From the NCBI RefSeq assembly GCF_037948395.1, contig NZ_CP149940.1, forward strand, positions 1,550,001-1,614,000: DNA of 64,000 nt, written 5' to 3'. The translations under genes and the position numbers were made by a program. This stretch comes from Serratia nevei. Lineage in GTDB: Bacteria; Pseudomonadota; Gammaproteobacteria; Enterobacterales; Enterobacteriaceae. The notes below the pieces were generated by a model. That model searched no databases. It was not told the origin of the DNA and worked only from the letters and a program-made list of their open reading frames with translations. Below, one piece after another: positions 18,934 through 21,837 of the stretch. How positions within the stretch are numbered: position 1 is the first letter of the stretch; every line of letters begins with the position of its first letter.

Positions 18934-19042
18934 CAACGGCGCACGGTTGTCATATTCCTTAGTTATGAAAAGATCCTATCGCCCATTCGCGCAAATTATT
19001 ATCACCATGCTTCGTGTGGTGGGATAGCGCGTGTGTCGCCAA

Positions 19043-19073
19043 TAAAAAACCCGCCGGCAAGGCGGGTTTTTTT
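19043..19073. terminator. Strong bidirectional-type terminator after LysR gene
   Basis: AAAAAACCCGCC and GGCGGGTTTTTTT pair around GGCAA, about 110 bases after the LysR stop and upstream of the kinase gene. Confidence 0.85.
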
Positions 19074-19103
19074 ATCCCCTTCCGGCAACGACCGGAGAAC
19101 GGC

Positions 19104-19601
19104 ATGAAAACCTACCCTGCAGTTTTACACCTGATGTGCGGCAAGGCCGGCGCAGGCAAATCGACGTTGGCGCAGCGTTTGGCGCAGCAACCGCAAACGC
19201 TGTTGCTGGTCGAAGATGCGTGGCTGGCGACGCTGTATGAACACGAGATGGCCAGCTTGCAAGACTATGCGCGCTGTTCCGAACGGTTACGGCGGGCGCT
19301 GGGCGGGCACCTCGTTCAGCTGCTGCGCGGCGGCTGGTCCGTGGCGCTCGATTTCCCGATGAATACGCCGGACAGGCGGCGCTGGGCCAAAGCGTTGGCG
19401 GAGGAGGCCGGCGTCGCGCACTGCCTGCATTTTCTCGACGTCAGCCATGCGCAGTGCCTGAGCCGGATAACGCTGAGAAACGCGCGCGGCGAGCACCCGT
19501 TTACACTGAACGAAGCGGAGTTTGAGCGCCTGGCACAGTACTTTGTTCCCCCGGCGGAAGAGGAAGGGATGACCGTTTTGCGTTATGGCGAACAGAACTG
19601 A
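19104..19601 (+). CDS. Small P-loop kinase (AAA/zeta-toxin-like)
   Basis: The 165 residues hold a Walker A motif GKAGAGKSTLAQRL near the N-terminus and a DFPMNTPDRRRW segment that may carry the second nucleotide-binding acid. An Arg-containing lid (LSRITLRNARGEHPF) follows. This layout fits the zeta-toxin/gluconate-kinase-like family of small ATP-dependent kinases often annotated as ATP-binding proteins. The start at 19104 follows CGGAGA. The gene stands alone between two hairpins, with no antitoxin beside it, so a metabolic or RNA-repair role is as likely as toxicity. Substrate unknown. Confidence 0.75.
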   Translation: MKTYPAVLHLMCGKAGAGKSTLAQRLAQQPQTLLLVEDAWLATLYEHEMASLQDYARCSERLRRALGGHLVQLLRGGWSVALDFPMNTPDRRRWAKALAEEAGVAHCLHFLDVSHAQCLSRITLRNARGEHPFTLNEAEFERLAQYFVPPAEEEGMTVLRYGEQN

Positions 19602-19604
19602 AAA

Positions 19605-19625
19605 CCGGCGCCATGACGGCGCCGG
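19605..19625 (-). terminator. Terminator between kinase and GNAT genes
   Basis: CCGGCGCC and GGCGCCGG pair around ATGAC. On the minus strand it is followed by TTTTC, so it mainly serves the GNAT gene. Confidence 0.6.
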
Positions 19626-19633
19626 CAACAGGG

Positions 19634-20140
19634 TTAGGATTCGGCGTTAAACGCGTTGTGGAAGGCGACTTCCGCACACGGCAGCGCGCCCTGGAAGGCG
19701 ATGGCGCGGAAGTAGTCTTGCGGCACGCCCGGCAGGGTCAGCGCGGTCTGCGCCTGGAAGCCGAAACGGCCGTAATAGTTCGGATCGCCCAGCACCACGC
19801 AGCCTGCGGCGTGCCGTTCCTGCAGCTCGGCCAATAGCTGGCGGATCAGCCGGCTGCCGATCCCCCGGTTCTGACTGGCCGGCAGCACCGACACCGGCGC
19901 CAGCCCGTACCAACCGGCGGTGCCGTTGCTGAGTATGACCGGCGAGACGGACGCGTGCCCGATCGGTGTGCCATTGTGCTCAGCGACCAGCGACAGGGTG
20001 AGAGCGCCTGCCGCACGCAGCGCGTTGACGATAAACTGCTCGGTGTGGCTGCTGTGTTCGGCATGCAGGAACGCGGCGGCGGTCAGGGTGGTGATGGCGG
20101 CGATGTCGGCCGGCGTTTCGTGGCGTAAAGTGATGTTCAT
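19634..20140 (-). CDS. GNAT-family N-acetyltransferase (YhbS/YjhQ-like)
   Basis: This 168-residue protein has the GNAT fold with the acetyl-CoA loop in SQNRGIGSRLIRQLL and the YhbS-type ending GDPNYYGRFGFQAQ. It lies 62 bases downstream of yjhX on the same strand, so it is probably cotranscribed. In E. coli the TopAI toxin (YjhX) is neutralised by YjhQ, a GNAT-family protein encoded next to it, so this gene may be the matching antitoxin. By eye its sequence looks closest to YhbS, a housekeeping acetyltransferase. Both readings remain open. A small hairpin (20173-20189) sits between the two genes. Confidence 0.82.
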   Translation of the reverse strand: MNITLRHETPADIAAITTLTAAAFLHAEHSSHTEQFIVNALRAAGALTLSLVAEHNGTPIGHASVSPVILSNGTAGWYGLAPVSVLPASQNRGIGSRLIRQLLAELQERHAAGCVVLGDPNYYGRFGFQAQTALTLPGVPQDYFRAIAFQGALPCAEVAFHNAFNAES

Positions 20141-20172
20141 GGTTGTATCCTGATTAAATAAGGCTGAGCCGA

Positions 20173-20189
20173 CCGGGCTACCTGCCCGG
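20173..20189 (-). terminator. Hairpin between yjhX and GNAT gene
   Basis: CCGGGC and GCCCGG pair around five bases, with no U-run after it on the minus strand. It may be a partial terminator or processing site rather than a full stop. Confidence 0.35.
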
Positions 20190-20202
20190 CCGGTATCGAT
20201 GA

Positions 20203-20460
20203 TTAACGGTTATCCAGCTGCGCACGCACGGCCTTGAGCCCGGCGAAGGTGACGCGATAAGGGCGCCCCTGGCGAGAGAGGATCAGGCGTTTGGTTTTGA
20301 GTTTGGTGAAGACGGCCAGCGAGCAGTCGGCCAGGCCGAGCCCTTCGCGGGTGTAGCATTCGACGTGGGTGACGCGACCGGCGTCGTTGCGGGTGAAGGC
20401 GATATAGCCGCCTTTGGCCAACACGTGCAGCACGCGTTGTTCCGCTTTGGAAATGTTCAT
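20203..20460 (-). CDS. yjhX: YjhX/TopAI family protein (UPF0386)
   Basis: The 85-residue product closely follows E. coli Yjh[19 protein letters not shown], then [27 protein letters not shown] and a C-terminal VRAQLDNR. E. coli YjhX was renamed TopAI because it binds and inhibits topoisomerase I, and it is countered by YjhQ. The start at 20460 follows AGGA nine bases upstream; a longer in-frame start at 20496 lacks support from family members. A sigma-70-type promoter and a structured 5' leader with an eight-codon ORF lie upstream, much as expected for a gene controlled by leader translation. The fold looks like a small winged-helix domain. Confidence 0.88.
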
Positions 20461-20625
20461 GTTGGGAGATCCTGTAATAACCCCAGATACGCGCATCCCC
20501 GCGCAAACGCGCGTCGGATACGTCAGAGTCCCTCGCCATACGGCAAGGAAGCGACTATCGGGTGGTTACAATCTCCAACATACAGGCCTCGGGCAGTGAA
20601 AAACGCCAGGACGGCGTTTCAGCGC
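20461..20625 (-). promoter_or_regulatory. Structured leader of yjhX with possible attenuation
   Basis: From the predicted start near 20623-20625 the leader runs about 160 bases to the yjhX ATG. In order it holds a 5' hairpin (20599-20620, AAACGCC/GGCGTTT followed by a short U-run), an eight-codon ORF, a 9-bp stem with a GTAT loop (20529-20550), and two mutually exclusive stems. In these, the GCGCG at 20509-20513 can pair with 20500-20504 or with 20489-20494. Near the start codon, TGGG (20482-20485) can pair with CCCA and enclose the AGGA ribosome binding site. Such switching structures suit control by translation of the small ORF. Confidence 0.55.
20555..20581 (-). CDS. Eight-codon leader ORF (MLEIVTTR) upstream of yjhX
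   Basis: The frame starts with ATG at 20581-20579, preceded five bases away by GAGG, and stops at TAG after eight codons, well before yjhX. A ribosome binding site this good before so short a frame, inside a leader with alternative stems, suggests a regulatory leader peptide. In E. coli, topAI expression is controlled through a short upstream ORF (toiL) that responds to ribosome-targeting drugs; I infer an equivalent role here. Confidence 0.5.
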
Positions 20626-20629
20626 AGTT

Positions 20630-20658
20630 AATGTAGCCAATGGCCGGTTGGCTGTCAA
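20630..20658 (-). promoter_or_regulatory. yjhX promoter
   Basis: On the minus strand TTGACA (20653-20658), a perfect -35 box, is followed after 17 bases by TACATT (20630-20635) as -10. It lies just downstream of the cynS stop, giving yjhX its own start. Confidence 0.7.
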
Positions 20659-20661
20659 TTT

Positions 20662-20683
20662 GCCGGCGGCGCGGGCCGCCGGC
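20662..20683 (-). terminator. Hairpin after cynS
   Basis: GCCGGCGGC and GCCGCCGGC pair exactly around four bases, 11 bases beyond the cynS stop. U-run is lacking, and the AAACGCC/GGCGTTT hairpin with U-run further on (20599-20620) may finish termination. Confidence 0.45.
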
Positions 20684-20693
20684 GCAAGGCCAA

Positions 20694-21164
20694 TCAGAAA
20701 GGCTTGGTCGGCAGGTATTTGCCGTCCAGGGTGATCACCGCGCGTTCGCCACCGTCCGGATCGGCGACCTTTTTGATATCCAGCTTGAAGTTGATGGCGC
20801 TGATGATGCCGTCGCCGAACTGCTCGTGCACCAGCGCTTTCAGCGTGGAGCCGTAAACCTGCAGCATTTCATAGAAGCGATAAATGGTCGGATCGGTCGG
20901 CACGCCGCCGGGAATGCTGCCGCGCAGCGGGATGGTTTGCAGCAGCAGCACCGCCTCTTCGTCCAGCCCCAGCTTGGCCGCTACCGTGCGCGCCGCCGGT
21001 TCCGGCAGCGCATGCTGCCCCAGCAGCGCGGCGGTGACGAACGCCAGGCTGAGACCGGTGCCCTCGGCCAGCGCGTCGAAAGTCAGGTTATGGCGGATCT
21101 TGGCGGCCATAATGGTGTCAGTGAGCGCTTCGCGCGGGGCGGCGTTATGCAGAGAGTGTGTCAT
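20694..21164 (-). CDS. cynS: Cyanate hydratase (cyanase)
   Basis: The 156-residue enzyme converts cyanate and bicarbonate to ammonia and carbon dioxide. The three catalytic residues known from E. coli cyanase are in place at R96, E99 and S122. The N-terminal helix-turn-helix-like domain (about 1-80) and C-terminal catalytic domain (ending [11 protein letters not shown]) are complete. It follows cynT by 19 bases on the same strand, so the products work together, cynT returning the bicarbonate used up. No cynX transporter gene follows, unlike E. coli. Expected to be induced by cyanate through CynR. Confidence 0.97.
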
Positions 21165-21183
21165 GTTAGCTCCTTTTGTTGGC

Positions 21184-21837
21184 TTAAAAACGGGCGATCG
21201 CCGGGGTGGCGGTCACGTCGGGATGGGTGGCGAGCGGCACGAAGCGGCGGGTTTCGCCGTCCAGCGCCTCGATAGCGCCGCTGGCGATGTCATAGACCCA
21301 GCCGTGCAGCGTCAGGCGGCCCTGATCCAGCGCCAGGGCGACGGAAGGGTGCGTTTTGATGTTGTTGAGCTGGGCGATGACGTTTTCGCGCACCATCGAC
21401 GCGACCCGGGCCTCGTCGGAGGCGTGCGGATAAGCCTGATTGACCGCCTTCGCGGAATCGGCGTAACGCAGCCAGCCGGCGACCGTCGGCAGGTGCTCCA
21501 GACACTGGCAGGTGGCGATGGCGGTCATCGCGCCGCAGTCGGAATGGCCGCAGATCACGATATCCTCCACGCCCAGCGCGGCGACGGCGTACTCGACCGA
21601 GGCGGTAACCCCGCCGGGTTCGGGGCCGAAAGAAGGCACGATGTTACCGGCGTTGCGGATCACGAACAGATCCCCCGGCTCGCGCTGGGTGACCAGCTCC
21701 GGTACCAGGCGGCTGTCGGAACATGAGATAAACAGGGTGCGCGGGTTTTGGCGGGTCGCCAACTGCTGAAACAGCGCCGTGCGTTCAACAAAGGCTTCGC
21801 GCTGGAACTTCAGGAAGCCTTCAATGACCTCTTTCAT
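21184..21837 (-). CDS. cynT: Carbonic anhydrase of the cyanate operon
   Basis: A 217-residue beta-class carbonic anhydrase, very similar to E. coli CynT. Zinc ligands C39, H98 and C101 with the neighbouring D41 are present (SCSDSR and CGHSDCGAM). It re-hydrates CO2 so that bicarbonate is not exhausted while cyanase works. The start is set at the ATG at 21837, preceded by GGAGAAACGG and matching the E. coli N-terminus ([16 protein letters not shown]); a longer reading would add four residues. First gene of the cynTS operon and divergent from cynR. Confidence 0.95.

Follow-up and report, generated by a model that had tools for sequence, protein, structure and literature searches.

A homologue of yjhX, the topAI of Escherichia coli, lies downstream of cyn genes in Serratia nevei, and the question raised by this locus is what kind of leader precedes the gene and whether it may place yjhX under the control of ribosome-targeting drugs. 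For E. coli, the main text of Baniulyte & Wade (eLife 2025, PMC12121999) describes toiL, an eight-codon upstream open reading frame (uORF) of topAI-yjhQP that encodes MLENVIIR behind a GAGG, as in Serratia; in the layout proposed there, with SHAPE and reporter data in support, a stall within this uORF unmasks topAI, the translation of which suppresses Rho termination, and topAI is induced through toiL by tetracycline, retapamulin, tylosin, erythromycin, and spectinomycin. The initial annotation of our window, by which we mean the whole stretch of 64,000 nucleotides that was analyzed (contig NZ_CP149940.1, positions 1,550,001 to 1,614,000), had suggested the same logic for the Serratia gene, and its interpretation of a topAI-like, drug-sensing uORF is supported by the gene family, the MLE-x-V peptide, the complementarity between the uORF and the yjhX ribosome binding site (RBS), and compensatory changes. 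Judged by these sequence features, the window leader is a member of the known ToiL kind, equipped with a variant sensor peptide.

The locus and its leader

The genes and leader elements follow one another on the minus strand in the order cynT-cynS, promoter, leader of about 163 nt with its uORF, yjhX, and a GNAT gene (Table 1). The promoter described in the initial annotation, TTGACA-17-TACATT, is present with 10/12 matches as the sole sigma-70-type site in 19600-21300; the shuffle control of the promoter scan gave a mean of 0.3 sites (sd 0.6), which makes the window match weak by itself, and a 10/12 site with a 17-nt spacer occupies the same place in 17/17 cyn-linked Serratia loci. Transcription would start at about 20623, and the leader length agrees with the 160 bases or so that had been estimated. 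Also recovered were the 5' hairpin with its U-run, an 8-bp stem that leads into Us and keeps AACGCC/GGCGTT in 17/17 loci, and the 9-bp stem TTCCTTGCC/GGCGAGGGA, which is present in the MFE fold. The 5' hairpin was considered as an intrinsic terminator and was not listed by the terminator scan, which found no intrinsic terminator after cynS or near the leader. A strong, GC-rich inverted repeat, GCCGGCGG/CCGCCGGC, lies without a T run between cynS and the -35 box (20662-20684, minus strand). The Rfam search returned nothing over gathering for the window leader or for four relatives' loci. In a base-composition check bearing on the Rho question, C exceeds G mainly in the coding part of yjhX and G exceeds C in much of the leader, so that no rut site is established in the window.

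Table 1. Features of the cynS-yjhX region, with positions in the window
Feature	Position	Strand	Basis or remark
cynS	20694-21164	-	Upstream neighbor of the leader
Predicted -35 hexamer TTGACA	20653..20658	-	Promoter scan and conservation
Predicted -10 hexamer TACATT, spacer 17	20630..20635	-	Promoter scan and conservation
5' hairpin GAAACGCC/GGCGUUUU, U-ending	20600..20620	-	Fold; kept in 17/17 cyn-linked Serratia loci
Shine-Dalgarno GAGG of the uORF	20587..20590	-	Sequence
toiL-type uORF, 8 codons plus TAG	20555..20581	-	Supplies the 5' strands of P1 and P2
P3	20517..20559	-	GATAGTC (last uORF codon and stop) with GACGTATC; 9-bp stem 20529-20550 as cap; pairing assigned by eye, with the fold and alignment A2 as further basis
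P5 hairpin CGCGC/GCGCG	20500..20513	-	Alignment and comparison of loci
P2 3' strand GGTTATTAC	20474..20482	-	Complements uORF codons 5-7
Probable Shine-Dalgarno AGGA of yjhX	20470..20473	-	Between P1 and P2; sequence, role inferred
P1 3' strand CTCCCAACAT	20459..20468	-	Overlaps the yjhX start codon; complements uORF codons 1-3
yjhX/topAI homologue	20203..20460	-	85 aa; PF09857, E 4.3e-41
GNAT acetyltransferase, putative and distant YjhQ-like partner	19634..20140	-	33.7% identity over 83 aa

The protein encoded by yjhX matches PF09857 over the full length of the profile (1-85 of 85) and NCBIfam PRK13687 with 141.5 bits against a cut-off of 99; a Foldseek search with the model of YjhX returned nothing at E <= 0.001, and a sequence search of solved structures gave one match, at E 0.59. 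The GNAT gene that follows is a putative partner of the TopAI-YjhQ type, distant from YjhQ by sequence, and no yjhP match was found on the fetched 1.5 kb in Serratia. Elsewhere in the window, an Rfam P9 element ("Pseudomonas sRNA P9", 55.5 bits; 18992-19070, plus strand) stands directly 5' of a P-loop kinase-like ORF (AAA_33, scanned as 19101-19601, plus strand), of which it may be the leader.

The cyn-gene neighborhood pointed out by the initial annotation is real and was seen only in one Serratia group, where the order cynT-cynS-toiL-yjhX recurs in 17/17 loci (L001, L013-L024, and L052-L055). On the fetched stretches no cynS was found outside these 17 loci; L071 has a cynT-like ORF 2.2 kb after yjhX, S. 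rubidaea (L070) combines the uORF MLEHVII with a fetched stretch free of cyn genes, and a further locus from a named Serratia (L125) has the uORF MLENVIIR and likewise no cyn genes, but little upstream DNA was available there. Given this distribution, the link is likely to reflect a local insertion of an independent module and to offer no clue to function.

Predicted pairing between the uORF and the yjhX ribosome binding site

The eight-codon ORF had been recognized from the outset: it reads ATG TTG GAG ATT GTA ACC ACC CGA TAG (20581-20555), and it starts, with a Shine-Dalgarno of its own, 121 nt before yjhX, compared with 139 nt before topAI in E. coli. Its peptide, MLEIVTTR, has M-L-E-x-V in common with MLENVIIR and differs at residues 4, 6, and 7, with two Thr, so that it departs from identity over the first seven residues, which the main text of PMC12121999 gives as conserved in bacteria with topAI-yjhQP. 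What the two systems have in common is that the uORF codons pair with the yjhX RBS and that the same gene lies downstream; Serratia is set apart by the peptide, by its own 5' hairpin, by a GNAT protein of low identity to YjhQ, by the lack of a yjhP match, and by its position after cynTS.

The initial annotation had also drawn a stem able to hide the yjhX RBS, and such a stem is indeed present; left unstated there was that its anti-RBS strand consists of the uORF codons themselves. In the window, AUGUUGG-AGAU--UGUAACC pairs with GGUUAUUACAGGAUCUCCCAACAU: P1 joins codons 1-3 to the bases that surround the yjhX start codon, and P2, which has two mismatches in the alignment register, joins codons 5-7 to GGTTATTAC, immediately 5' of AGGA. 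Read from the sequence, the uORF is the predicted antisense strand of the switch.

The strength of this pairing was compared in 109 distinct leaders, the uORFs of which had been picked without use of pairing. The cognate uORF:RBS duplex has a mean of -19.4 kcal/mol; the mean is -12.5 when the RBS is swapped for that of another species and -12.3 when it is shuffled. The cognate duplex falls at or below 5% in 67/109 leaders against swaps and in 71/109 against shuffles, 38/109 missing that level in the shuffle test, and the window duplex ranks at 1.9% and 0.5%, respectively. In whole-leader folds, the mean probability that the RBS pairs with the uORF region is 0.60, compared with 0.11 for shuffled sequences. 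The window leader has an MFE of -74.2 kcal/mol (z -3.45), with 0/200 shuffles as stable, and the fold z is at or below -2 in 105/109 distinct leaders.

Alignment across relatives, the check proposed with the initial annotation, found the ORF and the stems conserved. Across 30 leaders, hand-picked from 55 eligible ones as alike enough for a sequence-only alignment on which a five-helix structure was drawn by eye, the five helices are 83.1% paired, compared with 76.1% in shuffle controls that are inflated by relatedness and at most 51.7% when slid, and they hold 100 two-sided changes compared with 46.3 in shuffles, with 0/500 shuffles for pairing and for changes. For the uORF:RBS helices only, 89.6% of cells are paired (82.4% shuffled, at most 60.4% slid) and two-sided changes number 46 versus 19.7, again with 0/500 shuffles for each; the number of pair types in these helices is not above that of shuffles, 428/500 of which reach it. 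P1 (95.7%), P2 (84.8%), and P3 (94.3%) are the best kept of the helices, and P4 (69.0%) and P5 (68.5%) the least. An example of matched change is the Leu2 codon, in which the synonymous TTG and CTG track an A or G three bases before the yjhX start (UA 17, CG 8, UG 2, other 3). In the E. coli leader L010, the palindromes discussed as operator candidates for topAI (PMC4666372) map to the part of the RNA leader that holds P5 and P4.

Searched with a covariance model built from the 30 leaders, the 68 yjhX loci outside the model yielded 24 matches with E no higher than 1, all of which overlap the yjhX leader and 18 of which have E under 0.05, with 44/68 loci lacking a match. Run on the genome of the window, the RNA model R1 found this leader and no other (150 of 639 first-look candidates scored); it gave matches in 3 of 369 Gammaproteobacteria genomes, namely this one, G408, which is not independent because its locus L029 helped build R1, and G684, at 28 bits; as 8 candidates per genome were scored under strict filters, this search is no proof that other genes lack such a leader.

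Distribution, peptides, and partner genes

From 149 loci, 145 readable yjhX leaders were obtained, leaving out L009 (partial) and L122, L136, and L137 (too little upstream DNA). A uORF was called in 135 of the 145, 122 belonging to class A (M-x-E/G-x-A/V/T/S) and 13 to class B (E/Q-T/S-R), both classes having been defined after the leaders were read. The strict motif, a post hoc definition over residues 1-5, occurs in 93/109 distinct leaders and in 3/5450 shuffled ones, and the loose uORF call is made in 44/2180 shuffled leaders. The uORF starts 110-155 nt before yjhX in 91/109, closer in 4, and farther in 14. Pairing is weak in class B, where the duplex beats shuffles at 5% in 4/13 only; the whole-leader pairing probability there is 0.37 versus 0.10, with 5/13 leaders having at most 1/40 shuffles as high.

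ToiL-type leaders are present in Gamma-, Beta-, and Alphaproteobacteria, with hosts that include Serratia, Citrobacter, Yersinia alsatica, Stenotrophomonas, Acinetobacter, Chromobacterium, Janthinobacterium, Azonexus, Rhodospirillales, Sphingomonas, Bosea, and Ochrobactrum. Genomes with yjhX numbered 13/30 searched in the genus, 9/295 in the order, and 40/398 in the phylum; a DNA match was found in 1763/5426 complete E. coli genomes, and viral contigs gave 18 yjhX matches. The uORF is present in each of the 13 genus genomes that carry yjhX, and it was called in 28 of the phylum-level loci taken from the best 30 of the 40 matching genomes, the other two being near misses. Of at least 586 stretches matched in the scan of named genomes, the best 80 were kept, and this sample therefore leans to close relatives. 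In the open-access literature we found ToiL-type leaders reported only for E. coli and Salmonella, and the figure supplements of PMC12121999 may hold some of the taxa.

The ten leaders without a uORF call are L007, L008, L042, L051, L072, L112, L135, L140, L144, and L149. L072 is from Pseudomonas salomonii, and L042 (MFSFVETF) and L051 (TTG start, ...SETR) are near misses of class B. In L007 and L008, from two genomes of the same order, a TTG-start ORF ending in SIV (MTRTLISIV and MTKKLFSIV) lies 113-114 nt before yjhX; these ORFs are possibly divergent toiL. Six IMG/VR contigs classed as viral (L142, L143, L145, L146, L147, and L148) carry yjhX with very short uORFs (MSELV, MSELA, or MSELVR) and a GNAT gene.

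The gene after yjhX varies between loci: it encodes an acetyltransferase, a methyltransferase, or a beta-lactamase fold, or none is recognized (the scan covered 100/109 distinct loci; of the others, 6 lacked an ORF in range and 3 ended). On a YjhX tree of 118 of 119 rows, the class of the neighbor gene changes at least 23 times. Given this variable partner, toiL goes with yjhX and not with one fixed antitoxin. In Sinorhizobium meliloti, where MFHQSESR lies upstream of yjhX, the 1.2 kb fetched downstream of yjhX carries no annotated gene, but the annotation used is incomplete, and the stretch does contain long open frames.

With respect to the peptide itself, Arg is the last uORF residue in 80/109 distinct leaders, encoded by five different codons. 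In xGATAA-type leaders the last codon lies inside helix P3, a possible cause of the Arg; in leaders free of the xGATAA constraint, 38/61 uORFs end in Arg compared with 10/178 other short ORFs of the same leaders. According to the main text of PMC12121999, erythromycin apparently stalls E. coli toiL at termination, which makes a termination role reasonable, and it is likely that the terminal Arg matters at that step as part of the peptide. The same text offers missing Ala, Ser, and Thr codons as a possible explanation of why E. coli toiL does not respond to chloramphenicol. At least one such codon occurs in 82/109 distinct uORFs, and as Thr6 and Thr7 of MLEIVTTR would form a chloramphenicol stall context, Serratia yjhX, unlike E. 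coli toiL, is predicted to respond to this drug.

Mechanism, alternatives, and significance

We consider that this is a ToiL-type leader, in which the uORF complements most of the yjhX RBS and the resulting hairpin would silence yjhX until a drug-stalled ribosome opens it, and we give this reading a probability of roughly 85%. For Serratia, the uORF, its conservation, the complementarity, the compensatory changes, and the five-helix consensus come from sequence, and the steps that involve ribosomes and drugs are carried over from E. coli. The uORF would be translated continuously, each passing ribosome opening the hairpin only briefly; drugs would park a ribosome on it at the positions found in E. 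coli, namely Met1 for tetracycline and retapamulin, Val5 for tylosin, and termination for erythromycin, and the parked ribosome would free the AGGA and AUG of yjhX, whose translation would then guard against Rho inside the gene. In ermC/ermB and other macrolide-induced leaders, too, stalling on a short uORF reshapes the RNA and frees a downstream RBS, but there the regulated gene encodes an rRNA methyltransferase that confers resistance, and the rearrangement takes place in RNA 3' of the stalled ribosome (main text of PMC12121999), whereas in the Serratia leader the uORF itself would serve as anti-RBS strand, and the downstream gene, yjhX, encodes a homologue of a topoisomerase I inhibitor. 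The alphaproteobacterial DUF1127 attenuator of S. meliloti also combines a uORF-dependent tetracycline response with proposed Rho-type termination, but it serves another gene, and its C-rich uORF codons are described as the termination element and not as an anti-RBS strand (PMC12218461).

Two alternatives place the control elsewhere in the leader. The initial annotation had drawn two mutually exclusive GCGCG pairings as the switch, downstream of the uORF. The window does hold three GCGCG copies, and the local pairing of the first with the second stands, being complete in 17/17 cyn-linked loci (P5 appears as CACGC/GCGTG, a matched change, in L020, L024, L054, and L055); the alternative pairing of the first with the third is complete in 15/17, in L024 and L055 through a matched change, but keeps 3/5 pairs in L020 and L054, and P4 and P5, the home of these repeats, are the least kept helices, which makes switching by these pairings very unlikely. 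That the palindromes are DNA operators for a repressor was first considered in E. coli, where Yamaguchi & Inouye described ACACCGCGGTGT and TGCAcgtttTGCA in the region 5' of topAI (PMC4666372); gel-shift experiments with YjhQ and with the TopAI-YjhQ complex were negative in that study, and we read the first palindrome in the alignment as the covarying P5 RNA hairpin, so we attach next to no weight to this idea.

Two others concern the origin of the transcript and the role of the uORF. Should yjhX be transcribed mainly by read-through from the cyn promoter, it would be regulated with cyanate use rather than through the leader; the common minus strand and constant gene order of the cyn-linked loci speak for this, as does the empty terminator scan after cynS, but a good, conserved promoter separates cynS from the leader, read-through RNA would carry the leader anyway, and the leader is conserved at loci without a nearby cynS, all of which renders this quite unlikely. 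It is also conceivable that the uORF is kept solely as RNA, its translation sensing nothing specific and any slowdown of ribosomes opening the hairpin. Part of the peptide conservation is indeed RNA conservation, given that Glu3 is GAG in 68/71 eight-codon class A uORFs and that the xGATAA end lies within P3; against this stand the terminal Arg, spelled by five codons and enriched even outside the xGATAA leaders, and the drug-specific stall positions described in E. coli toiL (main text of PMC12121999), and we regard this explanation as unlikely while leaving it a small share of plausibility.

Beyond the single locus, three points go further than the main text of the E. coli study, namely the occurrence in three classes, the existence of a second class of peptide, and the exchange of the cargo; the breadth and the swapped cargo are the interesting part of the result. 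We tentatively propose, at somewhat less than even odds, that toiL-yjhX is an ancient, phylum-wide antibiotic-sensing module that joins one covarying RNA switch to sensor peptides that differ by lineage (one class with Glu3 and another with Glu/Gln-Thr/Ser-Arg, Arg being the usual last residue in each) and to exchangeable cargo, with YjhX, of predicted MarR-like fold, as the constant output rather than as half of a toxin-antitoxin pair, and with the codons setting each drug list, to which Serratia would add chloramphenicol. With natural sensor variants such as MLEIVTTR of Serratia and MFHQSESR of S. meliloti, laboratory reporters could test directly how the uORF codons relate to the drug list. 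The E. coli study itself closes its main text with the speculation that topAI and the rest of its operon serve additional functions related to what toiL senses (PMC12121999). Because the leader stays with yjhX across three proteobacterial classes while the neighbors change, it is the role of YjhX by itself, when translation is under stress, that now calls for an answer.
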